From a virus, in IMG/VR virus record IMGVR_UViG_3300050015_000940, positions 1-35,380 of that record: a stretch of DNA of 35,380 nt, one strand, 5' to 3'. The notes under the pieces are model-generated. The model saw nothing but the letters and a program-made list of their open reading frames with translations, was not told the DNA's origin and did not search any database. Below are positions 686 through 34,302 of the stretch, piece by piece; position 1 is the stretch's first letter, and each line of letters starts with the position of its first letter. Position numbers and translations under genes: made by a program.

Positions 686-1831
686 TTATATAAATATTTT
701 AGGATATTGTTCTTTGGCTTCAGAAGGAAATATAAGTCCTTGTTCTTGAAGACACTCTGAAAATCTAGCAAGAATATCTTGCAATTTATCCTTCCATTTG
801 AAATTAGGACTGTGAATTACTGCCCAAAGCTTCTCAAATGTATTTATATCCGATGGTTTATACCCCTCACCTACTGTAAGTTCTGTAACCTCCTGAGGAT
901 TTGAAGTAACAAATTCGTCAAAATTAGGATCATTCTTACCATTTTTGACTAATCCTTTCTTCCCCATAAAGTTCTTTCTGACTCGAAATATTCCTTTTGG
1001 GTATCTTAGAATATTGGTTTCTAATTCTTCAACTCCATCATCTGGGGTTCTTTTAGTAATGTCTTTTTGCGTTTCTGTAATAAGTGCCATGAGAAGAATA
1101 TTTCTCATCTTACCTTTATATTTTGATTCATTTCCCTTAAAATCAGGAGAATGATATATGAATCTTGACCATTCTAAATCCGGGGTAATCATTAAATCTA
1201 TTTGGCAAGTCCCCTGAGTAGTGTCCCCGTTAATTGGTGCACCAAAAGAAACTATACAAAAACCATGATTAATCTTAATCTGTAATCCTTTTTCTGCTAA
1301 AGCATTTGCTAAAAATTGAACAGTATCATCTTCTTTTAAAGCATTCTTTGTCATAAGAGCTTCTGCAGAAACTGCTACATCAATATCTCCGTGTTTATCT
1401 CCCTCTAACTTTTTCCCATAGGATCCTATTGTGTCCACATCTTTTTTATCTAAACCAAGGAAAGGAATAACATATTTGTAAACCCAATCCATTGTTCCCC
1501 GAGCTTCTTCCCAAGTAACTGATCTGGATTCAGGAATTGCATTGCCTCCTTCATTTAGAGATTTCCAGTCTTTAAATCCCATAAAAGTATCTCCAACCGA
1601 TTCATTTTTTGTTGGTTGAAGAACTCTCTGAAGAATTGTAATCATCTTCAAAGAAGGTTTCGGAATAAGAGTAGCTGTTATTTGATAAACCTTTGGATCT
1701 CTTTTTCCTAAATATCTCCATCTCATTTTTTCTCCTGGAACTAAGTTAACTTCATAGAAATCGTCACCCTTCCATATGGAGTGTGTATAAAATGCGTTTG
1801 ATCTATTTTTATAAATCTGTAGGTATGCCAT
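686..1831 (-). CDS. Pol-beta-superfamily nucleotidyltransferase
   Basis: With the ATG at 1829-1831 the product has 381 residues. The core shows the nucleotidyltransferase signature: GSYGKK at 136-141, then GDIDVAVS at 148-155 with metal-binding D149 and D151, and a third acid in CQIDLMI (D212). Such enzymes transfer a nucleotide to a protein, RNA or small molecule; the substrate cannot be read from the sequence. The frame stays open upstream to 1942, but that start would lie deep inside the preceding gene, so I chose 1831. This overlaps the 2H phosphoesterase stop by 23 bases and implies co-transcription. A second possible start is the ATG at 1580-1582, giving MGFKDWKSLNEGG, which resembles the N-terminus of the upstream protein (MGFKSFNDWLAEG). 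If that is used, the first 83 codons encode something separate. Fold is well supported; role is unknown. Confidence 0.75.
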   Translation of the reverse strand: MAYLQIYKNRSNAFYTHSIWKGDDFYEVNLVPGEKMRWRYLGKRDPKVYQITATLIPKPSLKMITILQRVLQPTKNESVGDTFMGFKDWKSLNEGGNAIPESRSVTWEEARGTMDWVYKYVIPFLGLDKKDVDTIGSYGKKLEGDKHGDIDVAVSAEALMTKNALKEDDTVQFLANALAEKGLQIKINHGFCIVSFGAPINGDTTQGTCQIDLMITPDLEWSRFIYHSPDFKGNESKYKGKMRNILLMALITETQKDITKRTPDDGVEELETNILRYPKGIFRVRKNFMGKKGLVKNGKNDPNFDEFVTSNPQEVTELTVGEGYKPSDINTFEKLWAVIHSPNFKWKDKLQDILARFSECLQEQGLIFPSEAKEQYPKIFI

Positions 1832-2447
1832 CTTTTTTGTCTTTGTCTTTTTTAAGATTAACAACTTTTCTTGAAAGTTTATCTGGATCTGTACTTTTCT
1901 TTTTGTTTTTGTTTGGATGCCATGAATAAACGGCTTTATCAAATATTACTTTAAAAGGTTCGGTCAATGTTGACTTATACTTCTTTCCAAGTCCGGGTTT
2001 TACAAAAGCGATGGTCATGTGAGGGTTATATCCATCAAAATCCTGTGTATTAGGAAGTTTCATAAATAAATCACGATACCTTTGAAGCTGAGGGGTTACA
2101 GGAAGATTATATTTCACAACATCATAATCTTCATTTTCAAATACATCAATTTCTGTTACTGGGAGGATTAATTTTTGCATATTAGCTTCCATCATATCAG
2201 CTAATCTTTGTGGGTCTATTTCTTCTTCATGAATACCATAAATGATCGTCATGTGAGGCTGGGTTTCTTTTCCATAGGAATCGTCTCCTGGTTTAAGATA
2301 AAGATCATCTTCAGCAATACCGTCTAAATGAAATTCTTCCCAGTTATCAATATCTGCGTCCATCATGATGCAACCGTATTTTGGTTCATCCTTTGTACTC
2401 TTATGAGCCCCCTCGGCTAACCAATCATTGAACGACTTAAATCCCAT
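1809..2447 (-). CDS. 2H phosphoesterase (LigT/2'-5' RNA ligase-like), possible anti-CBASS type
   Basis: The protein has 212 residues and two HxT motifs, PHMTIIYG (H65, T67) and PHMTIAFV (H143, T145). Their spacing of about 78 residues is what the 2H phosphoesterase fold needs to put two histidines in one active site. Family members cut 2'-5' or cyclic phosphodiester bonds. In phages, one branch (Acb1, such as T4 57B) destroys the cyclic nucleotide alarms of CBASS immunity, and others act on RNA ends. The sequence does not decide between these. The first residues, MGFKSFNDWLAEG, resemble a T4 capsid-targeting peptide. The C-terminus from about 175 is lysine-rich and probably disordered. It is the first gene of a minus-strand pair with the nucleotidyltransferase, overlapping it by 23 bases. 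Confidence 0.8.
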   Translation of the reverse strand: MGFKSFNDWLAEGAHKSTKDEPKYGCIMMDADIDNWEEFHLDGIAEDDLYLKPGDDSYGKETQPHMTIIYGIHEEEIDPQRLADMMEANMQKLILPVTEIDVFENEDYDVVKYNLPVTPQLQRYRDLFMKLPNTQDFDGYNPHMTIAFVKPGLGKKYKSTLTEPFKVIFDKAVYSWHPNKNKKKSTDPDKLSRKVVNLKKDKDKKDGIPTDL

Positions 2448-2493
2448 AATGCTTTTTCATTTCTTTATTTATTCGATAAATAAAATAAAAGAT

Positions 2494-3255
2494 ATGCCTT
2501 CTAAATTCCCATTTTATGTAACAGATGACTGGAAGTTTTATGAGCATACTCCAGAAACTAAAATAATTAAAGCTATGACACCATCAATTTCACAAAAAAG
2601 ATTAGACGACTTAGGATGTGTTCTTGGTTTAGACTGTTCAAAATATCAACCAAATATCAATTGGGCTGCTGCAAAAACTGCAGGAATTCAATTTGCTTTT
2701 ATTAAAATGACCGAAGGAACAACAGGACATGAAGATAGTTTGTATAATGTAAAAGCTAGGGTTCTTTCTGCACAACAAAATGGGGTAAAAGTTGGATATT
2801 ATCATTTTGCAAGACCCGGTAATATAGCAGAACCAGAAGCTGATGCCAATGAAGAAATTCAAAATATTTTAGGTCATATTGGATTCTTACCTAAATCGGA
2901 TTTACCTCTTGCATTGGATCTTGAAGCTTATTCAACTCAGAATGTTTGGGATAATAAGGTGGATCACATGGATCGATTTGTTAGTACCATTATAGCTGCC
3001 TTAAAAGTTAGAAATATACCGGTAATAGTTTACTCTTATAAAAGTTTCTTAGATGATAACACAAATCATTCATTTGGAGCTTACCCTGTATGGATTGCAG
3101 CATATTTAAATAATCCAGAAGTTAGTTTACCTGTAGTCCCAATAGGTTGGGATACTTGGGATATTTGGCAATTCACAGAAAAAGGTCAAATCGACGGATA
3201 TACCGGGGATATTGACCTGGATATTATGAAACAAGACTTTTTTAATAAGTTCTAA
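2494..3255 (+). CDS. GH25 lysozyme (endolysin-like muramidase)
   Basis: A 253-residue glycoside hydrolase family 25 protein that should cut the MurNAc-GlcNAc bond of peptidoglycan during lysis or entry. Family landmarks appear in order: VLGLDCSKYQPNINW (first catalytic acid region), FAFIKMTEG, VGYYHFARP, LALDLEAY (the DxE pair), VIVYSYKSFL, PVWIAAYL and WDIWQFTEKG...GDIDLDIM. The start is set at ATG 2494, preceded by the A-rich TAAATAAAATAAAAGAT. An upstream in-frame ATG at 2428 would overlap the divergent phosphoesterase gene and add an unlikely leader. There is no signal peptide, so a holin or other export route would be needed. The gene is alone on the plus strand here, and its end overlaps the convergent gene at 3242 by 14 bases. 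Confidence 0.92.
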   Translation: MPSKFPFYVTDDWKFYEHTPETKIIKAMTPSISQKRLDDLGCVLGLDCSKYQPNINWAAAKTAGIQFAFIKMTEGTTGHEDSLYNVKARVLSAQQNGVKVGYYHFARPGNIAEPEADANEEIQNILGHIGFLPKSDLPLALDLEAYSTQNVWDNKVDHMDRFVSTIIAALKVRNIPVIVYSYKSFLDDNTNHSFGAYPVWIAAYLNNPEVSLPVVPIGWDTWDIWQFTEKGQIDGYTGDIDLDIMKQDFFNKF

Positions 3256-3568
3256 TAGCCTTTAAAAGTTTTTCTCCTTTAGTTGAAACATGCCATCCAT
3301 CTTCTCTTTTTTCCATAATACCTAATTTTTGAAAAATAGCGAAGGATATGGCTGCTATTTCTTTGGCATCTTTTATAGCATCTTTTATTTCGGCTTCGTT
3401 AAGTAGCGGAGTTCCACCAGTTTCTAATTTTTTATCTACTCTTGCTTTGATTGAATTAAAAACGGTAGCTTTGCTCATGAAAGGAACGGTTATCTCTGAA
3501 TCATAATCTCCCTTATTTATTTTTTCTTTAACTTTGTTCAGGAATACCTGAGCTGATTCATTATTCAT
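3242..3568 (-). CDS. Small protein with a possible winged-helix C-terminus
   Basis: Unrecognised protein of 108 residues from the ATG at 3566-3568. An upstream in-frame GTG at 3607 is possible, but the ATG has the A-rich leader usual here (AGAAAAATTACTAACT). The C-terminal part (SFAIFQKLGIM, DGWHVSTKGEKLL) reads like a helix-turn-helix followed by a beta-wing, as in small DNA-binding regulators. The N-terminal half is charged and helical. It lies downstream of a GIY-YIG gene and ends tail to tail with the lysozyme. Real gene likely; DNA binding is only a shape-based guess. Confidence 0.6.
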   Translation of the reverse strand: MNNESAQVFLNKVKEKINKGDYDSEITVPFMSKATVFNSIKARVDKKLETGGTPLLNEAEIKDAIKDAKEIAAISFAIFQKLGIMEKREDGWHVSTKGEKLLKAIRTY

Positions 3569-3639
3569 AGTTAGTAATTTTTCTGTATGTACCTTTATTG
3601 TATGCACCAGAACACGAAGAAGTAACCATTTAAAAGTAT

Positions 3640-4203
3640 TTAACGGTAATTTAACGCCTGAGTATGCTGATTGTTTCCATTTGAATTATTCGAAGGTTTT
3701 CCTAACTTAGAATTTCTCATTTTATCTTTTGTTTTTTCGGAAAATTTTCGATGAGGTTTTTTTAATTTTTCTTTAATTTCCTCAGATCTTTTTTTATTTC
3801 TATTTGAATCTCCAATTTGATTTTTGCTTTCTTTTGTATGATGCCATAACCCGATTCTTTCTCGGTTTGAATCACCAATTCGTTTTTTTCCTTCTTCAGA
3901 AATATTACAAGAAGCAAATTTTTTTATTCCTCCCCATGCATTTAAATTATAGCCATGAGGGTATGCACAATTAAATTGTTTGATATATTTTTCTTGAGCA
4001 TTAAAAGAATCTTCCCTTTTTGGAAAAGTTTCTAAAATTTCTCTTTTAAAATTTTTCCGGCCAAATTTTTTTATATCCTTTTTGAGAGCAGTTCCGCTTC
4101 CAATATAGGGGTCACTTTCCATATAAAATGTTTTGTGGTCTCCTACGTATTGTTTCCCATTTAATAAACAAGTAGTTACATAAACATAGTAAATTTCTTG
4201 CAT
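3640..4203 (-). CDS. GIY-YIG homing endonuclease (YVY/YVG variant) with NUMOD3 repeats
   Basis: A 187-residue free-standing homing endonuclease. The GIY-YIG module occupies about residues 5-100, with YYVYVTTCLLNGKQYVG in place of the canonical GIY and YIG. SDPYIGSG, NFKREILE and the likely metal-binding glutamate in NAQEKYIKQFN follow. The C-terminal part holds repeated NUMOD3-like DNA-binding motifs (EEGKKRIGDSNRERIG, KESKNQIGDSNRNKK, EKTKDKMRNSKLGK). It is the same subtype as the gene at 19923, with matching YIGSG and NFKREILE blocks. A late-promoter-like TATATAAA lies 11 bases upstream of the ATG, so it may have its own transcript. It sits between the RuvC-like gene and a small regulator-like gene. 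Confidence 0.88.
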   Translation of the reverse strand: MQEIYYVYVTTCLLNGKQYVGDHKTFYMESDPYIGSGTALKKDIKKFGRKNFKREILETFPKREDSFNAQEKYIKQFNCAYPHGYNLNAWGGIKKFASCNISEEGKKRIGDSNRERIGLWHHTKESKNQIGDSNRNKKRSEEIKEKLKKPHRKFSEKTKDKMRNSKLGKPSNNSNGNNQHTQALNYR

Positions 4204-4213
4204 AGATTTTTAC

Positions 4214-4223
4214 TTTATATATC
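4214..4223 (-). promoter_or_regulatory. Late-promoter-like element (GATATATAAA)
   Basis: On the minus strand this reads GATATATAAAGTAAA, close to the T4 late -10 box TATAAATA. The same string occurs at 20644, 26995 and 32241 upstream of other minus-strand genes. It lies 11 bases before the GIY-YIG start, which would leave almost no leader. AT-rich sequence makes chance matches likely. Confidence 0.35.
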
Positions 4224-4383
4224 TAAAGTTAATAAATGAGTTCATGTTAATTAAAGAATCGTTAAAATTTTAGAGAACTCAAAATTTAACCAGAATTTAA
4301 CAAACCCTTGGAAACTATCCCATTATCAAGCATAAAAAGAGTGCTCAGAGAGAGTTTAGAAGAGGGTCTCTAAGAAGGATCTC

Positions 4384-5010
4384 TCAAAAAAGATGGGGAT
4401 TCTTCTCCCTGAAAGTCTCTACAGCCCAGAAAGCATCCACAAGGTCATCTAAATGCTCAATCCAAGTCCCAGTTCTTTTTTGAAATTTTTCAGGGGTAGC
4501 TTTTAACTCATGGCGAAGTTGAAGATCAACGCCAGATTCTATGAAGGCACGAATCATATCTTCTTTCTTTTTTCCTTTTTGGGAACAACCTGCAGTTTTC
4601 TTAATAGTTATTGGCGCGTACGTCTCCATGTGGGAGAAAGGAATGGTTTCATCAAAAAGGTTTCTCATAAGCATATACTTATAACCTCCTAATTGAATTG
4701 CCATATTTCCGGAAGAATTATAGGAAAGTCCTTCAAAAGCAATATACCAATCCTTAGATAAATCATCTGGAAGAGATTCAACAATAAGATCTGCAAGGTA
4801 CATTGAGTTTTCGACTTCCCACTGCATTTTCTTAGAAGAATCCTTATCCTTATATTTTTTATCTACTCTTGTCCATACTTCAACTCCAGCACTTTCAAGA
4901 ATCTTTCTTTCCTTCTGATGTTCAAAAGGCCAAGACATTAAGCTGTACTTTCCGTGGTTGAAAAGACATGCAGCAGGTTTGTTGATTGAAAAATCAAAAC
5001 CAATAATCAT
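4384..5010 (-). CDS. RuvC-like Holliday junction resolvase / RNase H-fold nuclease
   Basis: A 208-residue protein that fits the RuvC fold. It opens with MIIGFDFSINKPAACLF, where D6 sits in the first beta-strand like the first RuvC acid. It continues with WYIAFEGLSY (second acid, E93 region) and ends with HLDDLVDAFWAVE, supplying the last acidic residues on the final helix. Phage RuvC-like enzymes resolve four-way junctions and trim branched DNA before packaging; T4 uses the unrelated endonuclease VII for this. The gene follows two hypothetical genes with gaps of 2 and 12 bases on the same strand, so it is likely co-transcribed with them. Resolvase activity is inferred from the fold and the acid pattern. 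Confidence 0.75.
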   Translation of the reverse strand: MIIGFDFSINKPAACLFNHGKYSLMSWPFEHQKERKILESAGVEVWTRVDKKYKDKDSSKKMQWEVENSMYLADLIVESLPDDLSKDWYIAFEGLSYNSSGNMAIQLGGYKYMLMRNLFDETIPFSHMETYAPITIKKTAGCSQKGKKKEDMIRAFIESGVDLQLRHELKATPEKFQKRTGTWIEHLDDLVDAFWAVETFREKNPHLF

Positions 5011-5022
5011 AAGTTAGCGGGT

Positions 5023-5499
5023 TTAAAAGGATTTTTTACGAAATTTTCTTTTTGTGGTTCCAGCCCTTCGAGCAATAGTATTGACGGCTTTCTCTCCAGC
5101 TGAGGAACCGGAATTAGCCGAAACTATTTTACCATTTTCTTTAGTAATGTAGGCACGCCAGGATTCGGGGTTAGAATAGTATCCATTATCTTTGATGCTT
5201 AAATACAAGTCATAATCTAATTTGAATGTTCTCCAATCATTTTCTTCTTGGTAATATTTAAATCCGAATATTGCTTCTAAAGGCAAATATTTAGTATCAA
5301 ATGGGATCTCTTCAAAATTAATGGCGGACATTATTTGATTGAAGCGTTCTTTTGCTTCGTCTCTTTCTTCTGTAGTTCCAAGTTTAAAATAATTGGTATC
5401 AAAATTTTGAACCCAGGATTTTATACCTATATCTAAGGTATCAAGAGGTTTTCCGCCTCTTTCAAAATTAGCGACTTCAAATACTTTTAAAGCTTTCAT
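5023..5499 (-). CDS. Hypothetical protein with N-terminal 'FERGG-PLDTLDIG' tag
   Basis: Unrecognised 158-residue protein. Its first 25 residues, MKALKVFEVANFERGG then KPLDTLDIG, closely match the start of the protein at 17687 (MRALKVYEAIDFTREGDPL) and an internal piece of the protein at 18170. The middle is rich in aromatic and acidic residues (FKYYQEENDWRTFKLDYDLY). The end is a basic tail (ARRAGTTKRKFRKKSF). The gap to the upstream gene is 2 bases and to the downstream RuvC-like gene 12 bases, so it belongs to a minus-strand operon. The tag suggests sorting to a common place such as the virion, but this is inference. Confidence 0.7.
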   Translation of the reverse strand: MKALKVFEVANFERGGKPLDTLDIGIKSWVQNFDTNYFKLGTTEERDEAKERFNQIMSAINFEEIPFDTKYLPLEAIFGFKYYQEENDWRTFKLDYDLYLSIKDNGYYSNPESWRAYITKENGKIVSANSGSSAGEKAVNTIARRAGTTKRKFRKKSF

Positions 5500-5501
5500 T
5501 C

Positions 5502-6332
5502 TTATTTATAGCAATAGCCTGGAAGAGAACCACCATAAACTCGGATAAGTTCTTTGAGTTCTGCTTCTGGAACATAGTCTTTTAGTGTCCAGTATCCTCT
5601 ACCGGATATAGGCCTCCAGGTTTGATCATTAATAAACTGTCTATAGTCTTCAAGTTTTCCGTTGGGTTTGTCACCCGAAGTGAATATAACTTTAAAATGT
5701 CCCGAATTATCTTTCCATATTTCAGCAGTATGTCCTTTGTAATCATCATGAACATTGAAATAATCGCATTCACCCGTTCCGAAGTTAACTCTTCCAATAG
5801 GAGATATGGAAGCTTGACGAAGATTTTTTCCACCAATTTCTGTTGCACCAGCTTCGGAGAATCTTCCGATTCCCAAACCTTTAAATATTTCGGAGTTTCC
5901 TCTTGAAAATCCACCTCCACCACTTGAAGCGGGGAAACCAGCAGGTTTTCTTTCAGCATTTGCACCGGCAACTCTTTCAGATGGAAGAAGATATTGAGTT
6001 TTATGTTTTCTTTCTAATTTTTCTCCTTTTCCGACAGGCCCTACTACTGGAGCAAGAACATCGGCAGAAGCTTTTGATCTAACTCCTGAACCGCCAAGTT
6101 CAACAGCACGATCATGGAAAATAGGGGTAATATCGTTACCTGGTCCAAATACCTGTTCAGCAGCTTCAGCTCTTGCCTGAGCTTTACCAGCATCCTGAAT
6201 GATTTTAGCCTGGGTTGTAGCTAATGATAACTCTTTAGCATGATCTCCATTAGCTTTGGTCTTTATATCTTGCATACGGACCACATCCTTTACACCGATG
6301 GCTTCGTTTATTGATTCTGCAACTAGTTTCAT
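5502..6332 (-). CDS. Hypothetical protein with glycine-rich linker, possible virion protein
   Basis: Unrecognised 276-residue protein. It starts MKLVAESINEAIG, similar to the neighbouring MKRLVTESLEEF and to T4 capsid-targeting peptides. Residues about 25-65 are alanine-rich and helical. A Gly/Ser-rich linker near 135-150 (PASSGGGGFSRGN) separates them from a C-terminal domain of about 100 residues with aromatic-rich beta-like strands (YFNVHDDYKGHTAEIW, GHFKVIFTSG, RGYWTLKDYV). Its ATG overlaps the stop of the GIY-YIG gene in an ATGA arrangement, consistent with insertion of that endonuclease between two genes of an older operon. Confidence 0.7.
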   Translation of the reverse strand: MKLVAESINEAIGVKDVVRMQDIKTKANGDHAKELSLATTQAKIIQDAGKAQARAEAAEQVFGPGNDITPIFHDRAVELGGSGVRSKASADVLAPVVGPVGKGEKLERKHKTQYLLPSERVAGANAERKPAGFPASSGGGGFSRGNSEIFKGLGIGRFSEAGATEIGGKNLRQASISPIGRVNFGTGECDYFNVHDDYKGHTAEIWKDNSGHFKVIFTSGDKPNGKLEDYRQFINDQTWRPISGRGYWTLKDYVPEAELKELIRVYGGSLPGYCYK

Positions 6333-6922
6333 ATTTCTGATTTTATTTTCTTATTCCAAGGTGTTTTCCCATACATAGGGTTACTTGACCCAATTTTAGA
6401 AATTGCCATTTTATCTTTTGTATTCTGGGATCTGATTACGCCTAAACAAAAATCATTTCCTTTATTTTTTAATCCAATTTTATCTCGGGTTTCTTTAGTA
6501 ACCTCTCTTCCTAATCCACTTAATCCAATATGTTCTTTCCAACTTTCGGATAAGACTCTTCCTTCTTGAGTCTTGCTAAGTTTTTCTTTGGATTCTTCTC
6601 TCCAAGTTAATCCTAATACTCCATCACCTCCTTTTGTTCCGTTATATCCATTAGTATAAGATTGGGATTCATTTATCCAATAAATTTCTCTTTTGGATAA
6701 AATTTCTCTTAAATCTTTTTTTGATTCGGATTTAAACTCTTCAATTATATCCCATTGGATACTATCCCATCCATATTTTCTAATGGCATTATAAAATTTA
6801 TTTTGGGTTCCTGCATTTGCATGACATTTATGAGATCTTTTTCGATTCTCAAAGTCTATAGTAAACCCAAAATATTTTTTATTTGAAGGTAAAGTTGCGC
6901 AATATATTATTCCTGTATACAT
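6329..6922 (-). CDS. GIY-YIG homing endonuclease with NUMOD3 motifs
   Basis: A 197-residue protein starting at ATG 6920-6922, one base after the stop of the upstream gene. A further in-frame start at 6949 would overlap that gene and is less likely. The catalytic module is at the N-terminus: MYTGIIYCATLPSNKKYFGF supplies the GIY...YFG strands, RSHKCHANAG holds the usual Arg, FYNAIRKYGWDSIQW follows, and the catalytic Glu is in SKREIYWINE. The C-terminal half has NUMOD3-like repeats (EESKEKLSKTQEG, KETRDKIGLKNKG, QNTKDKMAISKIG). It resembles the bacterial/phage SegA-type enzymes more than the YVY-type enzymes at 3640 and 19923. Both ends abut or overlap phage genes. Confidence 0.87.
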   Translation of the reverse strand: MYTGIIYCATLPSNKKYFGFTIDFENRKRSHKCHANAGTQNKFYNAIRKYGWDSIQWDIIEEFKSESKKDLREILSKREIYWINESQSYTNGYNGTKGGDGVLGLTWREESKEKLSKTQEGRVLSESWKEHIGLSGLGREVTKETRDKIGLKNKGNDFCLGVIRSQNTKDKMAISKIGSSNPMYGKTPWNKKIKSEI

Positions 6923-6923
6923 T

Positions 6924-7187
6924 TTACATGAATGCACCCGAAGGAACATTTGGTCCTGTATTATTTTTTCTATTTATTTCGATCTCATCAAGCTTATTGT
7001 TGATATATTTCCAGATCTCTTCCTTGTTCTCAACAACGTTTGATCCTAAGGAATGTTTATCTCTTAAAAGATCAAAACAAAGATCGCCAAGTTCTCCATA
7101 CTTGCGAAGCATAACCACCGGTTCTACTGATTCATTTATTGAATTTCCTCTGAATTCTTCTAATGATTCGGTTACTAATCTTTTCAT
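6924..7187 (-). CDS. Small hypothetical protein with capsid-targeting-like N-terminus
   Basis: Unrecognised 87-residue protein that opens the minus-strand cluster 7187-4384. The N-terminus MKRLVTESLEEFRGNSINES has the pattern of an amphipathic peptide ending in acidic residues, like MKLVAESINE in the gene at 5502. The rest is charged and helical (LRKYGELGDLCFDLLRDKH, EEIWKYINNKLDEIEI). The tail NTGPNVPSGAF looks flexible. Real gene likely from its position; function unknown. Confidence 0.6.
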   Translation of the reverse strand: MKRLVTESLEEFRGNSINESVEPVVMLRKYGELGDLCFDLLRDKHSLGSNVVENKEEIWKYINNKLDEIEINRKNNTGPNVPSGAFM

Positions 7188-7305: not shown

Positions 7306-8250
7306 ATGAAAGAATTTAGTAAAACGGAAGCTGATCTTTTCATTTGTGAAGAGTGTAATTCGCTTTTTGCTAGTAAAAGAGGATTAGCTATGCATATTAA
7401 AAATCAGCATAATTCCAAATTATATTATGATAAATGGATTATGGATTTTAATGAAGATAAATGTAAAATTTGCAAAAATCAAACAGAATTTATCTCAATT
7501 CAAAAAGGATATAAAAAATGTTGTTCAAAAATTTGTTCTAATAAATATACCCATTTAAAAACGGAGGAATCTTTTATAAAGAAATATAGTAAACATCCAA
7601 AACAAACAGATGAAATAAAAAATAAATGTATAGAAAATCATTTAAAAGAATATGGGGTTAAAAATCCCTATCAAAGAAAAGAAATTAAAGACAAAATAAA
7701 ACAGACAAAATTTAAAAAGCACGGGGATGAAAATTATACAAATCGAAAAAAAGCAAAAGAAACTTGCATAAAATTATATGGGGTAGAGAATCCTTTTCAA
7801 AATAAAGAAATATTTAGTAAATGTCAAAAAACTTCATTATTAAAATATGGGGTTGAATATGCGAATCAAAATATAAATATTTATAATAAAGGACTTAAAA
7901 CTCGATTTTTAATCCATAAATTTAAAGATACAAATCTATGGTATCAAGGAACTTATGAATTGGATTTTCTAAATAAATATTATGATAAATTTAGTGATAT
8001 TCAAAGAGGGCCGTCAATTCGATATATTTATAATGGAAAGAATAAAGTCTATCATCCCGATTTTTATATTTCATCTTTAAATTTGATTGTTGAAATAAAG
8101 AGTACTTGGATTTTGAATAAGGATATAGAAATAGAAGAAAAGAAAAAAGCCACTATTTCTAATGGCTTTAAATATCTTATGATACTAGATAAAAATTATC
8201 AGAATTTTTTATCCCTTGCCCAAACTAATTCCAATTGCGGTTGTTACTAA
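7306..8250 (+). CDS. Zinc-finger PD-(D/E)XK homing endonuclease
   Basis: A 314-residue protein. Residues about 14-36 form a C2H2-like finger (CEECNSLF...MHIKNQH), followed by a four-Cys cluster (CKICKN...CCSKICSNKY). The middle carries tandem copies of a short basic motif: YGVKNPYQRKE, YGVENPFQNKE and YGVEYANQN. The C-terminal nuclease domain has YQGTYELDFL, then YHPDFYI...LIVEIKS, which is the PD-x(n)-E-x-K active site, and a lysine-rich helix. The gene at 9457 has the same order, and the gene cut by the left edge shares the YELDFL block. It is plus-strand and ends inside the last codons of the minus-strand gene at 8209 (42-base convergent overlap). Zinc and nuclease assignments are from motifs. 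Confidence 0.85.
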   Translation: MKEFSKTEADLFICEECNSLFASKRGLAMHIKNQHNSKLYYDKWIMDFNEDKCKICKNQTEFISIQKGYKKCCSKICSNKYTHLKTEESFIKKYSKHPKQTDEIKNKCIENHLKEYGVKNPYQRKEIKDKIKQTKFKKHGDENYTNRKKAKETCIKLYGVENPFQNKEIFSKCQKTSLLKYGVEYANQNINIYNKGLKTRFLIHKFKDTNLWYQGTYELDFLNKYYDKFSDIQRGPSIRYIYNGKNKVYHPDFYISSLNLIVEIKSTWILNKDIEIEEKKKATISNGFKYLMILDKNYQNFLSLAQTNSNCGCY

Positions 8251-9456: not shown

Positions 9457-10392
9457 ATGAAAAAAGAGACTTATAAATGTATGATATGCAATAAACCATA
9501 TTCTACTTTATCCCATTTATCTAGACATGTCAGCCAATTTCATGAAAATAAAAAACTTTATTATGATACTTATATGAAAAAGGAAGGAGAAGGTTTCTGT
9601 GCTGAATGTGGTTTACCAACTTTATATACTGATAGTTGGCAGCATGGGTATCTTAAATACTGTTCAAAAAAATGTAAAAAAATAGGAGTAGCTAAAAGTC
9701 TAGAAAAATCATCTCTAGAAATATATGGGGAAACAAATCCTAACAAAACTAAAAAAGTCAGAAATCGAATTAAAAAGACTAATAAAAAAAGATATGGCAA
9801 TTCATGTCCTATGCAAAATTCCCAAATTCAACAGAATATTAGAGAAAAAAATCTTAAAAATTTAGGAGTTGAATTACCATTTCAATCTCAAAAAATTCAG
9901 AAAAAAGGAGCAAAAACAAGAAAAGAATTATATGGTTTCGAATATACATATCAATCTTCAGAACTTTATGATAAGTGTAAATCGACTATGATAAAAAGAT
10001 ATGACGTTGAATACCCTTCGCAATCAGAGATATTATTTAATAAAGGACAAAAATCTGCTTTAATTTTAAAGAAATATAAGAATTCCGGAATTTATTATCA
10101 GGGAAGTTATGAATTGGATTTTCTTGAAAAATATGATCCCCAGTTTGATATTCAAAGAGCTTCTTTTATAAAATATAGTTTTGAAAAAATCCAAAAAATT
10201 TATTATCCTGATTTTTTAATCCCTTCTCTTAATTTAATTGTGGAAATAAAAAATCAGTATTTAGTAAAACGAGATAGGGATAAAATAGAAGCAAAAAAAA
10301 GAGCAACCATTAGCATGGGTTTTAATTTTATCATGATTATAAATAAAAATTATGAGGAATTTGAAAAACTTATTTCTCAAGTTGTTCTATAA
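9457..10392 (+). CDS. Zinc-finger PD-(D/E)XK homing endonuclease (paralogue of 7306)
   Basis: A 311-residue paralogue of the gene at 7306 with the same architecture. It has a C2H2-like finger at about 8-30 (CMICNKPYSTLSHLSRHVSQFH), a Cys cluster (CAECG...YCSKKCKK) and repeats of a basic motif (YGETNPNKTKK, YGNSCPMQNSQ, LGVELPFQSQ, YDVEYPSQSE). The nuclease domain follows: YQGSYELDFLEKYD, FDIQRASFIKY, YYPDFLIPS and LIVEIKN. Acids D and E with the Lys of EIK form the expected active site. It is inserted between a structural gene on the minus strand and a short plus-strand operon starting 10416. The two paralogues differ in most positions outside the motifs, so the duplication is not recent. Confidence 0.85.
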   Translation: MKKETYKCMICNKPYSTLSHLSRHVSQFHENKKLYYDTYMKKEGEGFCAECGLPTLYTDSWQHGYLKYCSKKCKKIGVAKSLEKSSLEIYGETNPNKTKKVRNRIKKTNKKRYGNSCPMQNSQIQQNIREKNLKNLGVELPFQSQKIQKKGAKTRKELYGFEYTYQSSELYDKCKSTMIKRYDVEYPSQSEILFNKGQKSALILKKYKNSGIYYQGSYELDFLEKYDPQFDIQRASFIKYSFEKIQKIYYPDFLIPSLNLIVEIKNQYLVKRDRDKIEAKKRATISMGFNFIMIINKNYEEFEKLISQVVL

Positions 10393-16082: not shown

Positions 16083-17687
16083 ATGGCCAACAATGTAGAT
16101 CTATTCAATAATCCTAGCAATGATTACGTATATCCAGCTCTATCTCCTTGTGCTGGTAGCGGAGATGATATGACACTTGAGTTTTTACCCAATGATCAAA
16201 TTGGAATAATTCAGGGAAGCAACATATTAGAAAGCTTGTCTTTTGCAAGTTTAAAAATTCCTGTAACTGCATTTAACTCATTTAATCAAACAATCCAGCC
16301 AGGAGAAGTTATTTTTGTTCCCGGATTAACTAAGGGTCTTACCACGAGAGTATTAGGATTTTTATTTCCGTATTTTACAACAACTGATGAATCTAAAGAT
16401 CCCTACTTTATGAAAGTGGATCTTTCAATAAATTTTTACAAGAACTTTCAATATTTTAATTTAAATATTTCTGCTACAGCTGATGTTTCTAATAACGTTA
16501 GTATTGATACGGCATTGACCATTGCTTTAACAAATGCTCAGTCTAAAGTTATTGCTTCTTACGATCCTAGTGTTCTCACATTTTCAGCAACTCAGGATGG
16601 ATATAATTTTGATATTACTCATTTGCATTTAACCCTTATTGATACTTTTACTAATATAAATTCGCCATTCCCTTATATTGGGGTTACTCAGGATTTTTAC
16701 TTAGATGCATCTATAAACGTTCCCTATGCTAAATACCCAAATTCAGCTATTCAGGGGGTTATAATGAAATTGGATTATCCCCCAACAAATTATGCACCAC
16801 CTGTAAATAGTGGCGTAGGTAATTCCAACCAATTAAATTATCCTTATAGTGCTAATTATATAAATGGAGTAAATCAAGGTCCTTACAAAACGGTTTACGA
16901 TGATTGGGTTTATATTAATCATCTTATTGATCCAGTTACGATTTATAGTCCTATTGGAATTGCTAATTTCATCAATACTATTGTTTTTGATTCTTCAATG
17001 TCTTGGAATTTTGTTGGACCAATGCTCGCACCCGATGTATCTAGTTTAGTTATAGATGGTTCTATTATTGGCAGCGTAAAAATAAAAGATTGTTCTATTA
17101 CTGATTCAAGCATCTCTCATTGCCAAATTTATAAAACTGACATTAAAGATATTTTAACTTCCATAACTATTCAGGATTCTTCAATTGAAAATTCCAATAT
17201 TAATATGGTGGTTGTATCCCCTTCTCTTAGAATCAATATTCAGAATTCTTTAATCAATGATACTTCAATCATAAACTGCACGATTAGCGATACTTCAATT
17301 TACAAGTCATTTATTTATGATGCATCCTTGATAAATTGTACTCTTACTAACTGTACTTTTGATACAGTTGATGAAGAAAATTGCACATTTGTTACAATAA
17401 ATCAAAGTGCTGATGTTTCGACATTTTTTACAGATTCGTCAACTTTCTATACCAAGTCAGTAAAATCAGTTGCTGTAGGTATGGGAGGTCCTTCTTCTGA
17501 TACTGTCATGAGTGCAGGAGATTATTTAACTTGGGTTCAGGATAATAATCTTTGGTTTAAAGTTGGTGAATTTTATGTTTGGACAACTGCTCCTGATTAT
17601 ACGGATACAAAGAACCTTATTAATGGATTCTATGTTTTCAATCCCCATAATTTTGCAGTTAAGCTTGAATACATTTTGTTTATCTAA
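16083..17687 (+). CDS. Structural protein with beta-helix-like repeat region
   Basis: A 534-residue protein without signal peptide. The N-terminal 300 residues are beta-rich and typical of virion proteins (PGEVIFVPGLTKGLTTRVLG, YFNLNISATADVSNNVSID). Residues about 320-440 form an imperfect repeat with regularly spaced Ile/Ser/Cys turns (VIDGSIIGSVKIKDCSITD, SSIENSNINMVV, SLINDTSIINCTISDTSIY, ASLINCTLTNCTF), the pattern of a right-handed beta-helix or pentapeptide-like solenoid. A small C-terminal domain ends in FNPHNFAVKLEYILFI. Phage fibres, spikes and decoration proteins are often built this way. It begins after a terminator and the A-rich leader AATAAATAAATAAAATAAAA. Its stop overlaps the next start. 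Confidence 0.65.
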   Translation: MANNVDLFNNPSNDYVYPALSPCAGSGDDMTLEFLPNDQIGIIQGSNILESLSFASLKIPVTAFNSFNQTIQPGEVIFVPGLTKGLTTRVLGFLFPYFTTTDESKDPYFMKVDLSINFYKNFQYFNLNISATADVSNNVSIDTALTIALTNAQSKVIASYDPSVLTFSATQDGYNFDITHLHLTLIDTFTNINSPFPYIGVTQDFYLDASINVPYAKYPNSAIQGVIMKLDYPPTNYAPPVNSGVGNSNQLNYPYSANYINGVNQGPYKTVYDDWVYINHLIDPVTIYSPIGIANFINTIVFDSSMSWNFVGPMLAPDVSSLVIDGSIIGSVKIKDCSITDSSISHCQIYKTDIKDILTSITIQDSSIENSNINMVVVSPSLRINIQNSLINDTSIINCTISDTSIYKSFIYDASLINCTLTNCTFDTVDEENCTFVTINQSADVSTFFTDSSTFYTKSVKSVAVGMGGPSSDTVMSAGDYLTWVQDNNLWFKVGEFYVWTTAPDYTDTKNLINGFYVFNPHNFAVKLEYILFI

Positions 17688-18157
17688 TGAGAGCTTTAAA
17701 AGTATATGAAGCCATTGATTTTACTAGAGAGGGCGATCCCCTTGACAGATTGAATATCGGAAGAAAATCTCGATCCCCTCTGTTAAGAGCTCTTAAGTTT
17801 ATGAATACTGGGAAAATGCAGGAACAATTGGATGGAGAAGCTACCAATGATTGGTTAAAGGGAAATCCATCTTTATGTAAAGCTCTTAATTATGATCCCA
17901 ATAATCCGAAAGAGGTATTTGAATGGACAAATATATGGACTATAGAAACGGATTCTTATTGTGAAGAATATGCACCAGATGATGTGGATTATGAAGTTTT
18001 AGATAATGAATTCATTCCTACCGGTAAATATTGGGGGGTATCTAAGCCTGGAGAATATGATATTCGAGAAGGTGTTATCAAGGGAACTAACATTAAAGTA
18101 ATAAAATATACAGGTAGTGGAACCTCCGGATATGCAATGAGGAAAGAATGGTTATAA
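17687..18157 (+). CDS. Hypothetical protein with N-terminal 'F-RE-GDPLDRLNIG' tag
   Basis: Unrecognised 156-residue protein. It starts MRALKVYEAIDFTREG then DPLDRLNIGRKS, nearly the same as the gene at 5023 on the other strand (MKALKVFEVANFERGG, KPLDTLDIGIKS). Beyond the tag the two proteins differ. The body is acidic and aromatic (EVFEWTNIWTIETDSY, EFIPTGKYWGVS). It overlaps the end of the beta-helix gene by one base (TAATG) and is followed 12 bases later by another tagged protein, so the three form one plus-strand unit ending at 19120. Confidence 0.7.
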   Translation: MRALKVYEAIDFTREGDPLDRLNIGRKSRSPLLRALKFMNTGKMQEQLDGEATNDWLKGNPSLCKALNYDPNNPKEVFEWTNIWTIETDSYCEEYAPDDVDYEVLDNEFIPTGKYWGVSKPGEYDIREGVIKGTNIKVIKYTGSGTSGYAMRKEWL

Positions 18158-18169
18158 AATAAATACTGT

Positions 18170-19093
18170 ATGAACGCAGAACAAATTATAGTTGATCACA
18201 AGGAATTTTATTTCAATGCGGATACTTTAGAGGATCCAAAAGTTATAAGAGTATTTCTATTCGAAGATCCCCAGCTAGAACATGTAGCTAAGAATCCGGA
18301 AGGAAAAACTAGAATGGTTGACAAAGAGCAGATTCACGAAAACCTTAATGAATGGGGTGGCGGTGGAGCTGGATATGCAGTTTGGGGTGGTGGTTCGGGA
18401 AGACAGTTTGGTAACCCATCATCTGGCGGTAGATTTACTGGTAGAGGATTTGGATTTGGCCAATCATCGAATAACAATGGGGGATCGAATTTAATGTATA
18501 CCTACAGCATTGAACCTCTTAATCAAACTCTTCAGACAAAACCTACAATGCAGGAAGAAGGAGAATATATTCATGTTGGAACAGAAATTAGAGGAAAAGT
18601 ATTAGGAAAAGATAGATGGGTTGAAGCACAGGTTCTATCTATTGAAGAAGACTCAGATAACAATACATCATCTTACACGGTTTTAGATCCCGATACAGCT
18701 CAGTCTATTAAGATAGATCCAACTTCAGCGGAGGTCCTTAAGAAAGAGCTATCTCCAGAGATGATCGTACGTGACGTTGTTGGAGAAAATTATTATCCTA
18801 GAATCGGAGAATTTTTAAATGAAAAAATAGATTTTGAAAGAACCGGGGATCCTTTAAAAGCAATGAAAATTGGTAAAGAATATTTCAAACTCTCCGAAGA
18901 TGAAATCTTCGATGTTGTAGATCAATATTTTGAAGAAGCAGAACAATTTGTATTTGCCACCTACCCCGATATGAAATACACACATAAACAATATGATGAA
19001 GCTTTTAATCAATACATCAAGGAAAAAGAACCTCGTTTAAAATACGACAAGAGAAATTTTTATAAAATATACTGCAAATATGGACCACAATAA
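18170..19093 (+). CDS. Hypothetical protein with Gly-rich linker and internal tag motif
   Basis: Unrecognised 307-residue protein in three parts. Residues 1-60 are a small acidic domain. Residues about 62-107 are a Gly/Ser/Asn-rich linker (GGGGAGYAVWGGGSGRQFG, GRGFGFGQSSNNNGG). A beta-like domain follows (TEIRGKVLGKDRWVEAQVL). Near 212-236 is NEKIDFERTGDPLKAMKIG, the same motif that begins the proteins at 5023 and 17687. It is followed by a helical C-terminal domain (DEIFDVVDQYFEEAEQF, YTHKQYDEAFNQYIKEKE). The Gly-rich linker resembles that of the gene at 5502. The internal tag could mark the start of an ancestral second protein fused here. Confidence 0.68.
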   Translation: MNAEQIIVDHKEFYFNADTLEDPKVIRVFLFEDPQLEHVAKNPEGKTRMVDKEQIHENLNEWGGGGAGYAVWGGGSGRQFGNPSSGGRFTGRGFGFGQSSNNNGGSNLMYTYSIEPLNQTLQTKPTMQEEGEYIHVGTEIRGKVLGKDRWVEAQVLSIEEDSDNNTSSYTVLDPDTAQSIKIDPTSAEVLKKELSPEMIVRDVVGENYYPRIGEFLNEKIDFERTGDPLKAMKIGKEYFKLSEDEIFDVVDQYFEEAEQFVFATYPDMKYTHKQYDEAFNQYIKEKEPRLKYDKRNFYKIYCKYGPQ

Positions 19094-19120: not shown

Positions 19121-19936
19121 GTCCTTTAACCAAGGTACCTCAAATTTGTGTATCTTAGTTTCTAATTTCCTTACATATACGTGATTTTCCGGAACGTTGA
19201 ATAGCATAATAGCATCATCTCCTTCTTTCCATGTTTCCCATCTTTTTACAGCTTCGTCTATTAATTCCTTTTTGAAATGATTTTTTGCACTCCAGTTGAC
19301 AAGTTTCTTACGAATATCTCGTCTAATCCAAGCTGCATGACCCATTCGGATTTCTTCATCTTCAAAGACATAAGTTCCCACATTAAGCGGATTTAGGATT
19401 CTTCTTGTTGGATCTGTTGGTCCAGGAGCAGAACTTTCATAGGTATAGTTAAAGAAAGTTGAGTGAATGAAGGGAACAAAAGGACGAAATGGATATACTA
19501 AATAATGATCAAAATCCCTATAATAATTTACATAGGAACAATAAGTAATGGGCCAACCCATTTCATCAATTTTATTTTTAGCATATCTAAACTGATCCTT
19601 ATCATAAAATTCATCAGCATCAATATTTAAAATATGAGAATATCCTTTAGCTCTCATAAGATTAATTCCCATGTTTCTTTTTTCACATTCCTGATTTCTG
19701 GAATAAGCACCAAAGTCTGGTTTAAATTCGATCAATTCGTCTACAAGACCTAAACTTTTTAGTCTTTCCAATTCTGCCATATCTTTTCTATCCATTGGAT
19801 TTTTCCAATATGATTTCTTTTGATATATTGCAGCTACCCAGTCAATTTGATCTCGTATTTCTAAAATTAGATCATGTAAGAGTTCTGAGGAGTCAAACGC
19901 GTTTATCGTAATGCCGAGCTTTTTAATGTGAGCCAT
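19103..19936 (-). CDS. Glycosyltransferase, family 2-like
   Basis: A 277-residue protein that fits an inverting GT-A glycosyltransferase. The N-terminus has the first Rossmann-like strand and helix (KLGITINAFDSSELLHDLIL). FGAYSRNQECEKRNMG then leads to HILNIDADEFYDKDQF, with the metal- and nucleotide-sugar-binding DxD at D106-D108. Family 2 members with this ADEF(Y) ending often glycosylate protein or surface polymer. In phages such enzymes modify DNA, virion proteins or host envelope; the acceptor here is unknown. It starts at ATG 19936, overlapping the GIY-YIG stop by 14 bases, as expected if that endonuclease inserted just before it. Confidence 0.7.
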   Translation of the reverse strand: MAHIKKLGITINAFDSSELLHDLILEIRDQIDWVAAIYQKKSYWKNPMDRKDMAELERLKSLGLVDELIEFKPDFGAYSRNQECEKRNMGINLMRAKGYSHILNIDADEFYDKDQFRYAKNKIDEMGWPITYCSYVNYYRDFDHYLVYPFRPFVPFIHSTFFNYTYESSAPGPTDPTRRILNPLNVGTYVFEDEEIRMGHAAWIRRDIRKKLVNWSAKNHFKKELIDEAVKRWETWKEGDDAIMLFNVPENHVYVRKLETKIHKFEVPWLKDKKEGA

Positions 19937-20621
19937 CTTTCTTTAGTTTTGGTTTTTTTAAATTGTTTTTTCTTTCTTCCGAAAATTTTATACCCCAATT
20001 TGGATGATTTTCACCACTTAATTTTTCACTTATTAAATTAATGGATTCTTGGGTATGATGTTTTCCCTTTATCCAGGGTATTTTATCTTTATGTGAATCG
20101 CTTTGTTTTTTAATAAAAATTTCATATCGTTTGACCCCTTCTTCTAATCCATATATTTCAATTAGTTCTTTTTTAAATCCCTTTCCCTTTCTAGAAGTAG
20201 TTGTGCCCAATTTAGCAAGTCTTTGATTTTCTTTCATCCGATTTGCTTGCTCTATTCCATATAATTCTTCATATGTTTTCCCTTTTTGCCATTCTCTCTG
20301 TTTCTTTTTTGTATCTTCAGATTGTTCAGCGCCAGAAAAACCTATGCCCCCTTTTGGACATAAATTATATCCATTGGGGCAAAGAGTTTGAAATTTTTCT
20401 ATATACTCAGCTTCTTTATGTAAGGCATCTTCTCGATCTTTACATTCCTCCAATATTTCTCTTTTAAAATTTTTCTTTCCTTCTTTTTTTACAGATTTGA
20501 GAAAATATCTGCCGCTTCCAATATAATTATCCTCAATGTTATCAGTGGCATGCGAACCGACATATTGTTTTCCAGAGATTAAATTTGTAGTAATATAGAC
20601 GTAATTAAATTCCCTAGCCAT
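19923..20621 (-). CDS. GIY-YIG homing endonuclease (YVY/YVG variant) with NUMOD-like tail
   Basis: A 232-residue enzyme whose catalytic module starts with NYVYITTNLISGKQYVGSH, then DNYIGSG and KKNFKREILE, and a Glu in KEAEYIEKF. The same blocks occur in the gene at 3640, so the two are close relatives. The C-terminal part is longer and has YGIEQANRMKENQRLA and YGLEEGVKRYEIF, a repeated helix of a DNA-binding type, plus a NUMOD3-like end (TQESINLISEKLSGENHPNWG). A late-promoter-like TATATAAA lies 23 bases upstream. It overlaps the glycosyltransferase start. Confidence 0.87.
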   Translation of the reverse strand: MAREFNYVYITTNLISGKQYVGSHATDNIEDNYIGSGRYFLKSVKKEGKKNFKREILEECKDREDALHKEAEYIEKFQTLCPNGYNLCPKGGIGFSGAEQSEDTKKKQREWQKGKTYEELYGIEQANRMKENQRLAKLGTTTSRKGKGFKKELIEIYGLEEGVKRYEIFIKKQSDSHKDKIPWIKGKHHTQESINLISEKLSGENHPNWGIKFSEERKNNLKKPKLKKDGSH

Positions 20622-32161: not shown

Positions 32162-32240
32162 ATTTTTAAAACTTATTTTTATTATTTATTCACATAGAAA
32201 AACTGGAAAAACTTCTTTCTATCTTTAAATAATGTGTTTC

Positions 32241-32250
32241 TTTATATATC
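32241..32250 (-). promoter_or_regulatory. Late-promoter-like element (GATATATAAA)
   Basis: Minus-strand GATATATAAAGAAA, identical to the element before the tape-measure gene. It lies 80 bases upstream of the sheath ATG and just after the terminase stop, leaving a leader of ordinary length. Confidence 0.45.
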
Positions 32251-32277
32251 GATGCTAAAATATTCCCAATTTAACTT

Positions 32278-34302
32278 TTATCGTCTACCTCCCCACATTG
32301 TCGAGCCCGAACTAGAACCAGAATACCTTGGTTTGTTAGCATTCTGATATATTTTTTGTAATTGAGCCATCTCATTTCCAGAAACATCATCATTATTATA
32401 GAGATTATGGAAAGAATCATCGCTTAATTCTTCCGGGGTTTCTATAGGAGTTTTAAGAAGCTCAGAAATATATCTTTTTATTGGGGAATCATCTAAATCC
32501 TGAAGAAAGTCATATAGCCAATCACCATATTCGGGTTCTTCATAAAGTCTTGCAGTATTAATACATGCCATTGCAGCATCGTCATGTTTTGCTATACCCT
32601 TCCAAGAAAGTTTTACCTTACCAAAAGCTCCAAATTCTCCAGTAGTTTTTGAATCATTCGGAATTAGGCATTTAGTTTCGACTAATTTTCTTGCAAGTTT
32701 GCAGAAGAAGTCTTTATCTTGTTTTTGGCGGAATCCTGCTTTTCTTCTTGGGGGTTTTTCTCCTGGAACTGGAGCCGTGTGATATGAATGCATAACGCAT
32801 CCTTCAAAATAACCATCATGATCTGCAAATTTATCAAGAAACCTCTTACCATTAAAGTTCATTTCTGTAACTAATTTGCAGAAATCCCCGCCAAATTGGT
32901 CAAATACAAGTGCCTTGTTAACTTGAGCCATAACTTCCTCATCTCCATAATTGTCAAAGAATATTCCAACCTGTCTCATTCGAAACATATTTTGGATTTT
33001 TCTTTCATCTTTTCTGAGTTTACGAAGTTTTACCATAGATTTAGGTTCTACTTTGTAAATAGCGGTAACATTAAAGTCATTATCCTTCTTTTCCTCATCC
33101 TCATCTTTTCCATCGGCAATATCATTGGATAAAACAAAACGATCCCTTTTATCAAAACTATTATTTGGATCAAATCCGGGATGCCAAAGTAATTTGTCTC
33201 GATAAAGATCTTCAGACAAAGCGGATTTTTCTAATGGATGATATTTATATTTTTTCTCATTCTTTTTAAGCCATCTCATTTGATTTGGTGTTAAAAGAAG
33301 ATTACTTTTACGGTCAAATAAAAGTTCATATTCCTGAGCAAATTCTTCTTCCCCAAAGTTTGCTTTGATTTCTTCCATCCAAGCATCATCGTGGCCAGGA
33401 ACTTCCCAATAGTCGACTCTCTTAAATTTAAAAGTGTTTTTTCCTGTATTAGCTTTATCCCATATTTCATAGAATAAGTTATCCATGCCGTCGGGCGTAG
33501 ATGAGATAATACATTGGGAAACTAATGAAGAGGATAAGGTAGGATAAACAGATCTCCAGAATGATTTAACAAGTTTCTGGTTGATGTGAGCAAACTCATC
33601 GATGTATAATACGTGGATGGTAAAACCGATAGATGCTGTTTTGGTGGTAGCTTGAGAAGTAAGCATACATCCATTATCGAGACGAAGACCTAAAGCCCCG
33701 ATGGATTTTATACCAGGCTTCATAAAGAATGGTAGTCCTCGGAATACATCAACAACCTTTGCTACAATTTCTGTAGTAGTGGCCTGTTTGTTAGCAAGAA
33801 TAAGTAAGTTTCTATCTGTGTGAAAGCAAAGATACCAAGCAAAGAAAGCTGAAATAGTTGTAGTATTGTGGGACAAAATCCCGTTTGAATAAAATCGGTG
33901 TTCTGGTGAATTAACCGTTACATCAAACATTGAGATTTTTTGTGAATATTTTTTTATATTAATAACTCTTGATAATCCCCTTTTTGTTTGGATACAATTC
34001 CCTACTTTTAAATTCTTAATAAATACCTCATTCATTAATTTATTAAAAACTATGTGATTATCTGCCCCCTCTAGATACATGCCATTTTCTAAATCCACCC
34101 TCCATAGAGTATAAGGCTGGGTTTTATGGATTTGAGAAATGGGTTTAAAACCCATATCAGTTTCAATTTCTAAATTCTCTATAGATATGCTTTCAATAAT
34201 TTTCTTACTATTATCATTTTCATCTAAATTTAAATGACGATATTCCCATTTTTCGATAAGTTGAATTAAAAATAAGATAAGATATTTAAGGGTTTTTTTC
34301 AT
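32278..34302 (-). CDS. C-terminal half of a split large terminase, fused to a C-intein
   Basis: A 674-residue product. Residues 1-146 are an intein C-fragment ending in GILSHN. Residues 147-674 are the terminase from just after the P-loop lysine: TTTISAFFAWYLCFHTDRN aligns with T4 gp17 after SRQLGK. Walker B is VLYIDEFAHI (D235, E236), the coupling motif SSTPDG is at 267-272, and nuclease acids are in LSNDIADG (D394) and KHDDAAM (D574, D575). The N-terminal half with Walker A is absent and must lie beyond the right edge. A TAG stop lies four codons upstream of the ATG, so this is a separate gene and not a readthrough. The ATG overlaps the end of the Vsr-like endonuclease gene by 17 bases. Active terminase would need protein trans-splicing. 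Confidence 0.9.
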   Translation of the reverse strand: MKKTLKYLILFLIQLIEKWEYRHLNLDENDNSKKIIESISIENLEIETDMGFKPISQIHKTQPYTLWRVDLENGMYLEGADNHIVFNKLMNEVFIKNLKVGNCIQTKRGLSRVINIKKYSQKISMFDVTVNSPEHRFYSNGILSHNTTTISAFFAWYLCFHTDRNLLILANKQATTTEIVAKVVDVFRGLPFFMKPGIKSIGALGLRLDNGCMLTSQATTKTASIGFTIHVLYIDEFAHINQKLVKSFWRSVYPTLSSSLVSQCIISSTPDGMDNLFYEIWDKANTGKNTFKFKRVDYWEVPGHDDAWMEEIKANFGEEEFAQEYELLFDRKSNLLLTPNQMRWLKKNEKKYKYHPLEKSALSEDLYRDKLLWHPGFDPNNSFDKRDRFVLSNDIADGKDEDEEKKDNDFNVTAIYKVEPKSMVKLRKLRKDERKIQNMFRMRQVGIFFDNYGDEEVMAQVNKALVFDQFGGDFCKLVTEMNFNGKRFLDKFADHDGYFEGCVMHSYHTAPVPGEKPPRRKAGFRQKQDKDFFCKLARKLVETKCLIPNDSKTTGEFGAFGKVKLSWKGIAKHDDAAMACINTARLYEEPEYGDWLYDFLQDLDDSPIKRYISELLKTPIETPEELSDDSFHNLYNNDDVSGNEMAQLQKIYQNANKPRYSGSSSGSTMWGGRR
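33865..34302 (-). other. Split-intein C-fragment (146 aa) inserted in terminase Walker A
   Basis: This segment of the terminase gene contains Hint-domain blocks. The block B region is LENGMYLEGADNHIVF, with His83. Block F is ISMFDVTVNSPEHRFYSN. Block G is GILSHN, with His145 and the splicing Asn146. The first extein residue is Thr147. The nucleophilic Cys1 and block A are not here, so they must be in a short N-fragment encoded elsewhere. An atypical split near the N-terminus, with a small N-piece and a C-piece of over 120 residues, is known from the environmental T4-type terminase intein VidaL T4Lh-1. Confidence 0.85.

Follow-up and report, generated by a model that had tools for sequence, protein, structure and literature searches.

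Does a 35 kb fragment of a viral genome (IMG/VR record IMGVR_UViG_3300050015_000940, positions 1 to 35,380; hereafter the window) encode a set of proteins that are packed into the phage head and delivered to the host together with the DNA? An earlier note had pointed to four N-termini with the shape of the T4 internal-protein signal and had proposed that a nucleotidyltransferase and a 2H phosphoesterase might be among such injected proteins. Our comparison with related phages gave the idea of such a tagged set strong comparative support (phage-specific shared tags, unrelated bodies, a protease, conserved sites and the labels of a cultured phage), though less for the nucleotidyltransferase, and we consider it likely that these N-termini act as T4-type capsid-targeting tags on packaged, trimmed and injected proteins.

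The window phage is a T4-related huge phage. It was placed by its terminase large subunit (32278..34302, minus strand): LR756500, a metagenomic phage of 462 kb, ranked first (37.5%) and the Lak megaphages next, ahead of LR745206, PAU and PTm1 among others. A segment of this phage is also present, at 100% identity, in contig G002.

Open reading frames (ORFs) came from a simple longest-ORF caller that takes the first ATG as the start. The four N-termini are encoded as the earlier note had read them, all on the minus strand and each with a PhixE site (Phi, hydrophobic): MGFKDWKSLNE/GG (1582), MGFKSFNDWLAE/G (2447), MKLVAESINE/A (6332), and MKRLVTESLEE/F (7187), where the slash follows the Glu. 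The T4-like shape (Met, hydrophobics, acidic residue) was thus present at four starts, but as a loose rule it was not enriched in the window, being found at 5/39 ORF starts and 28/199 internal Met (P = 1.0). It therefore proves nothing by itself and was rejected as sole evidence. For the window alone, this agrees with a chance origin, in which the tags would simply reflect how common short Met-hydrophobic-acidic starts are in AT-rich phage genes. The tag families of its relatives change this verdict.

Tag families in relatives and their probable link to the head

ORF N-termini of whole relatives were clustered against internal-Met controls, excluding pairs with related bodies. Large star clusters emerged in LR756500, LR745206, PAU, and Lak-A1. 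Profile counts identified 26/618, 80/883, 22/283, and 22/566 tagged proteins, respectively, with about one expected in each phage, and the bodies behind the tag were distinct in 17/26, 73/80, 22/22, and 21/22 cases, so that the same tag stands on unrelated proteins. Each phage has its own consensus: MKYIKEYEEFLLEA in LR756500, MIKKYNQFINE and MKYLKxFNES in LR745206, MKTLTQLYEA in PAU, and MNKNIKKLLESLFDD in Lak-A1. At a strict threshold there were zero internal tag matches in the four genomes; exceptions to this N-terminal position are the DMGIG lineage described below, in which the cleavage half also occurs internally, and the window protein at 18170, which has internal tag-like sites. The tag codons vary synonymously, which indicates selection on the protein and ruled out a conserved mRNA element. 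In T4, the internal proteins and Alt were recovered, too few for a cluster, and P-SSM2 had three MKSFxQFLxE-like starts.

The tag families of several relatives far exceed both the internal-Met and internal-Glu controls, and none was found in phiKZ, PTm1, or RaK2. Within the window, N-termini were compared with a profile built from the tag that this lineage itself uses, with 4946 internal Glu sites as controls. The 6332 tag scored above all controls, followed by 17687 (p = 0.0006), 5499 (p = 0.0014), and 7187 (p = 0.0097), with 1582 (p = 0.06) and 2447 (p = 0.09) behind. The two best further cases, 17687 and 5499, had been absent from the earlier note's set. Chance is thereby largely refuted as an explanation for the tag family as a whole, and we regard it as very improbable.

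In T4, mutations assign residues 4 and 7 of the signal to targeting and residues 8 and 10 to processing (PMC9026906). The conserved columns of the LR756500 tag (Y 25/26, F 24/26, [LIV] 25/26, E 22/26; Y-x-x-F-[IL]-x-E) stand at the same spacing. The full pattern of aromatic-4, aromatic-7, hydrophobic-8 and Glu-10 was found in 23/26 LR756500 tags, in 22/80 LR745206 tags, and in the window at 2447; the T4-type aromatics were missing from 6332, 7187, PAU (1/22), and Lak (0/22).

A gp21-family protease was present in LR756500, Lak, PAU, PTm1, and G025, with a sub-threshold match in LR745206. The enzyme forms a single polypeptide with a scaffold-like region in LR756500, LR745206, and G025. The protease-scaffold ORF contained 11 [YFW]..[FYWH]PhixE sites in LR745206 (0.26 expected) and 3 in LR756500 (0.17 expected), making it the protein richest in tag-like sites in both genomes, and the G025 counterpart had 10 PhiNE sites compared with 1.2 expected. 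In the major capsid protein, PhixE ends the predicted propeptide in 29/29 variants. In PAU, a cultured phage of Sphingobacterium, 14/19 tagged genes are no more than 12 kb away from the gp21-type protease (P = 6e-10); its MKTLxxLYE tag occurs among gp131-gp154 and on gp199 and gp270. The PAU depositors had labelled gp142, gp154, gp199, and gp270, all tagged, and the untagged gp70 as 'internal capsid protein' (4/5 tagged, P = 6e-5), and the tagged gp152 as 'scaffolding'.

These observations bear on whether the tag might instead sort its proteins elsewhere, to a replication compartment, the membrane, or a part of the virion other than the inside of the head, or serve as a degradation or interaction tag. 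Such a destination would fit LR756500 and LR745206, whose tagged genes are scattered genome-wide and not just near the head genes. Against it stand the residues shared with the T4 signal, the PhixE sites in capsid propeptide and scaffold, and, in PAU, both the clustering of tagged genes and the internal capsid protein labels. We judge it improbable.

Two side observations were made. PAU 94-1182, labelled as an internal capsid vertex protein, gave weak but repeated matches to bacterial sigma factors (E about 1e-5). A gp21-like match in G019 (L325 1429-1887) was rejected as the head protease of the window lineage: it is a 152-residue second paralogue that has replication/recombination-type genes as neighbours and is unlikely to be the head enzyme. 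Such a paralogue also occurs in LR756500 (154951-155127).

A bipartite tag and candidate polyproteins

In contigs near the window (G005, G006, L318), a first block M[KR]AKxVNE is joined to a second block FERGxDPKxxMxIG, and a related group carries the longer tag MKLVKEHINE/KFTEDSDPIxDMGIG. A scan for the DMGIG block returned 101 stretches that hold the block, and 195 copies lay in ORFs, 122 of them N-terminal and 71 internal. These correspond to 166 unique sites, 163 of which were scorable; a hydrophobic P3, two residues ahead of the Glu, was present in 163/163 compared with 50% for all Glu of the same proteins, a ratio that overstates independence because the sites are related to each other. 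A short-peptide tblastn search of cultured phages with the DMGIG tag gave no match.

The two halves of the tag behaved differently. The N-terminal half (V-K/R-E-H) was conserved at starts and not at internal copies, and it was swapped between proteins (MKLVKEHINE, MRAKFINE, MKFTSYNDWLNE) while PhixE stayed constant; in L379, MKFTSYNDWLNE immediately precedes the DMGIG block. Internal copies were mostly spaced about 110-150 residues apart (median 124), with up to six in a protein of 827 residues from L359. Proteins with four to six PhiNE-KF...DMGIG copies, some with ankyrin repeats, are encoded at L359 9039-11522, L399 5140-7020, and L386 710-2716. A cleavage half that recurs between domains would make these larger proteins cargo polyproteins, and their sequences suggest that this is what the multi-copy DMGIG proteins are.

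The main rival to this reading is that a single domain family was duplicated and that the KFTEDSDPIxDMGIG block is no more than its conserved beginning, neither a portable tag nor a cleavage junction, because 95/163 bodies following the block chain into one family by single linkage; the spacing of the internal copies, clustered near 110-130 residues, also favours it. Against it, the bodies fall into 54 families, 43 of them singletons, some with ankyrin repeats, and the N-terminal half is exchanged with persistence of PhixE. We regard a duplicated domain as unlikely, though less so than the two alternatives above, and retain the polyprotein reading as a suggestion.

Tagged proteins of the window

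Four window proteins, starting at 2447, 6332, 5499, and 17687, are good members of the tag set, and the one at 7187 is a probable member. The 6332 gene (5502..6332, minus strand) encodes a 276-residue protein with no Pfam family, whose tag MKLVAESINE (6303-6332) had the top window score. Bipartite tags are present on a 158-residue protein (5023..5499, minus strand; MKALKVFEVANFERGGKPLDTLDIG at 5425-5499), whose G001 homologue retains the tag, and on a 156-residue protein (17687..18157, plus strand; MRALKVYEAIDFTREGDPLDRLNIG at 17687-17761), whose G006 homologue carries MKALKVLEAYNFQRGQNPKRSLSLG. The tag MKRLVTESLEE (7155-7187) of an 87-residue protein (6924..7187, minus strand) is similar to MKNLVKESINE/KF and to MxxKLVxESLEEF of G001. 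A 307-residue protein (18170..19093, plus strand) has internal tag-like sites, MVDKEQIHENLNE (18314-18352) and FLNEKIDFERTGDPLKAMKIG (18812-18874), and close to the first of these the homologues in G001, G006, G015, and G016 have their start, which carries the lineage tag.

The tagged 2H phosphoesterase (1809..2447, minus strand) carries MGFKSFNDWLAE at 2412-2447, with the body starting from about residue 22. Pfam returned 2_5_RNA_ligase2 (8.5e-6, just under the cut-off) and Acb1 (2.7e-5). Both HxT motifs of the 2H superfamily, H65-x-T67 and H143-x-T145, were invariant, the AlphaFold model showed a 2H-like body behind 19 mostly low-confidence residues, and PDB fold matches comprised Usb1, CPDase, LigT, and Acb1; the body is thus a 2H enzyme. 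It shares the 2H fold and HxT motifs with Acb1, the 2H nuclease that counters CBASS (cyclic-oligonucleotide-based antiphage signalling system), and PDB 7t26 was among its fold matches, but LigT, CPDase, and Usb1 matched equally well or better, and the Acb1 family test gave 24.4 bits, below the curated cut-off of 27. Its tag was poor in the lineage profile and an exact fit to the T4 pattern, with the aromatic, aromatic, hydrophobic and Glu of F-N-D-W-L-A-E spaced as Y4, F7, I8, and E10 of T4. Membership gains support because homologues have tag-like N-termini in other lineages: MGFVSLKDWLME in G005, MKEFISYKNWVRLNE in L004, and MKLKKYKQFIKE, that phage's own tag, in LR745206. The phosphoesterase, which the earlier note had suggested might be packed in the head, is therefore a good candidate.

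For the nucleotidyltransferase (686..1582, minus strand; possible tag MGFKDWKSLNE at 1550-1582), the same claim fared worse. The protein is of the Pol-beta type, with G53-S54, D66, D68, and D129 invariant in five homologues and weak fold matches of a low-confidence model to Pol mu, TdT, and Cid1. Homologues were found in Lak, G001, and G005; a pattern search of viral contigs for close relatives found none. The frame is open to 1831, and the 686-1831 frame is fused to a remnant (first ~70 residues) of a gene that in G001 is a separate 442-residue ORF (31833-33161), which leaves 1582 uncertain as the true start despite a GGAG box 8 nt upstream of its ATG. With a tag in the G005 copy and none in Lak and G001, its place among the tagged cargo is doubtful.

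Several points weigh against packaging and injection. Besides the untagged nucleotidyltransferases of Lak and G001, the G001 phosphoesterase has its tag internally, downstream of an acetyltransferase domain, in a fused frame that is also open in G006; the position of the tag segment between the two domains in G001, and probably G006, would fit separation of fused cargo by cleavage there. The tags of 6332 and 7187 lack T4's aromatic residues, and PTm1, RaK2, and phiKZ yielded no such tag family under the same clustering. A prohead protease, which the earlier note had expected in the genome, was found as a gp21-type enzyme in complete relatives, whereas the window fragment and the contigs nearest to it yielded none, and the window lineage's own capsid gene was likewise not found; tail-sheath and portal relatives of the lineage provided context and no capsid gene. 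We found no virion proteomics, N-terminal sequencing, or structures for these phages, and when the capsid protein and two of the tagged proteins of PAU were searched against solved structures, there were zero PDB matches. The PAU labels are taken as independent annotation and not as virion data, since their basis is not visible.

Two other features of the window were noted. GIY-YIG and HNH-like homing endonuclease genes, judged by eye from their translations, are dense in the 35 kb (3640-4203, 6329-6949, 7306-8250, 9457-10392, 19923-20621, 27021-27461, and 34286-35347). In the terminase ORF (32278-34302), an N-terminal stretch of about 145 residues ending ...YSNGILSHN resembles the C-terminal part of an intein, and alignments of the Lak, PAU, and PTm1 terminases to the ORF begin at residue 147.

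Proposed mechanism and comparison with known systems

By analogy with T4, a tagged protein would be a late product whose N-terminal 10-16 residues, which probably form an amphipathic helix, join the prohead scaffold core. The phage's gp21-type protease would then cut after the Glu of PhixE, and the mature protein would remain in the head and enter the next host along with the DNA. Every lineage uses its own tag consensus. In the window-related group the tag has two parts, a variable N-terminal half and a conserved cleavage half (PhiNE/KFTEDSDPIxDMGIG, or FERGxDPKxxMxIG in the closest relatives), and repetition of the second half between domains would yield cargo polyproteins that are cut up in the prohead. 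The window's cargo would comprise the phosphoesterase, 6332, 5499, 17687, probably 7187, and only possibly the nucleotidyltransferase.

Tagged proteins elsewhere include, in LR745206, an Rnl1-like RNA ligase (470485), a protein with a poly(A)-polymerase head domain (516201), a 2H-exonuclease fusion (448257), and a SMODS-associated NUDIX protein (340824), as well as leucine-rich repeat proteins and a metallopeptidase-VWA protein. Such cargo may act in RNA repair or counter-defence. More tentatively, as a picture we hold to be somewhat short of probable, T4-related huge phages, some at least on Bacteroidota, may load tens of proteins into the head by lineage-specific tags, partly as beads-on-a-string polyproteins, often with one targeting half in front and a prohead-protease site PhiNE/KF...SDPIxDMGIG before each domain. 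This kit, with enzymes of the RNA-repair type (an RNA ligase, a poly(A)-polymerase-like nucleotidyltransferase, and a 2H phosphoesterase) beside SMODS-associated NUDIX, ankyrin, and leucine-rich repeat proteins, would amount to prefabricated counter-defence. If so, dozens of ready-made proteins would be delivered to each infected bacterium, and the injected set of uncultured huge phages would be readable from sequence: a short tag would flag dozens of candidate effectors or anti-defence proteins per genome, mostly without known function. They would also offer a compact way to probe the specificity of the prohead protease, and new tags for packaging could be drawn from them.

A literature search found no paper on such tags in huge phages. 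The polyvalent proteins are, like the multi-copy DMGIG proteins, multi-domain and thought to be packaged and injected (PMC5512222), but their release has been proposed to occur through embedded peptidase domains (PMC5512222), whereas the junctions here resemble prohead-protease substrates. In phiKZ and SPN3US, the prohead protease strips propeptides from head-packaged ejected proteins (PMC5694885), as proposed for the cargo here; several of those propeptides exceed 100 residues (PMC5694885), and phiKZ showed no shared short tag family. The known kind is the T4 capsid targeting sequence, of which the present tags would be a much expanded variant. Like T4 IPI, IPII, IPIII, and Alt (MKTYQEFIAE/A, cut by gp21), the relatives carry a 10-16 residue N-terminal tag on unrelated proteins, and they share with T4 the Y-x-x-F-[IL]-x-E pattern (LR756500 and part of LR745206), a gp21-family protease, and the PhixE site. 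They differ in having 20-80 tagged proteins with lineage-specific tags, compared with a handful in T4, and in the bipartite DMGIG tag, its internal repeats, and, in several, the fusion of the protease to a scaffold-like region.

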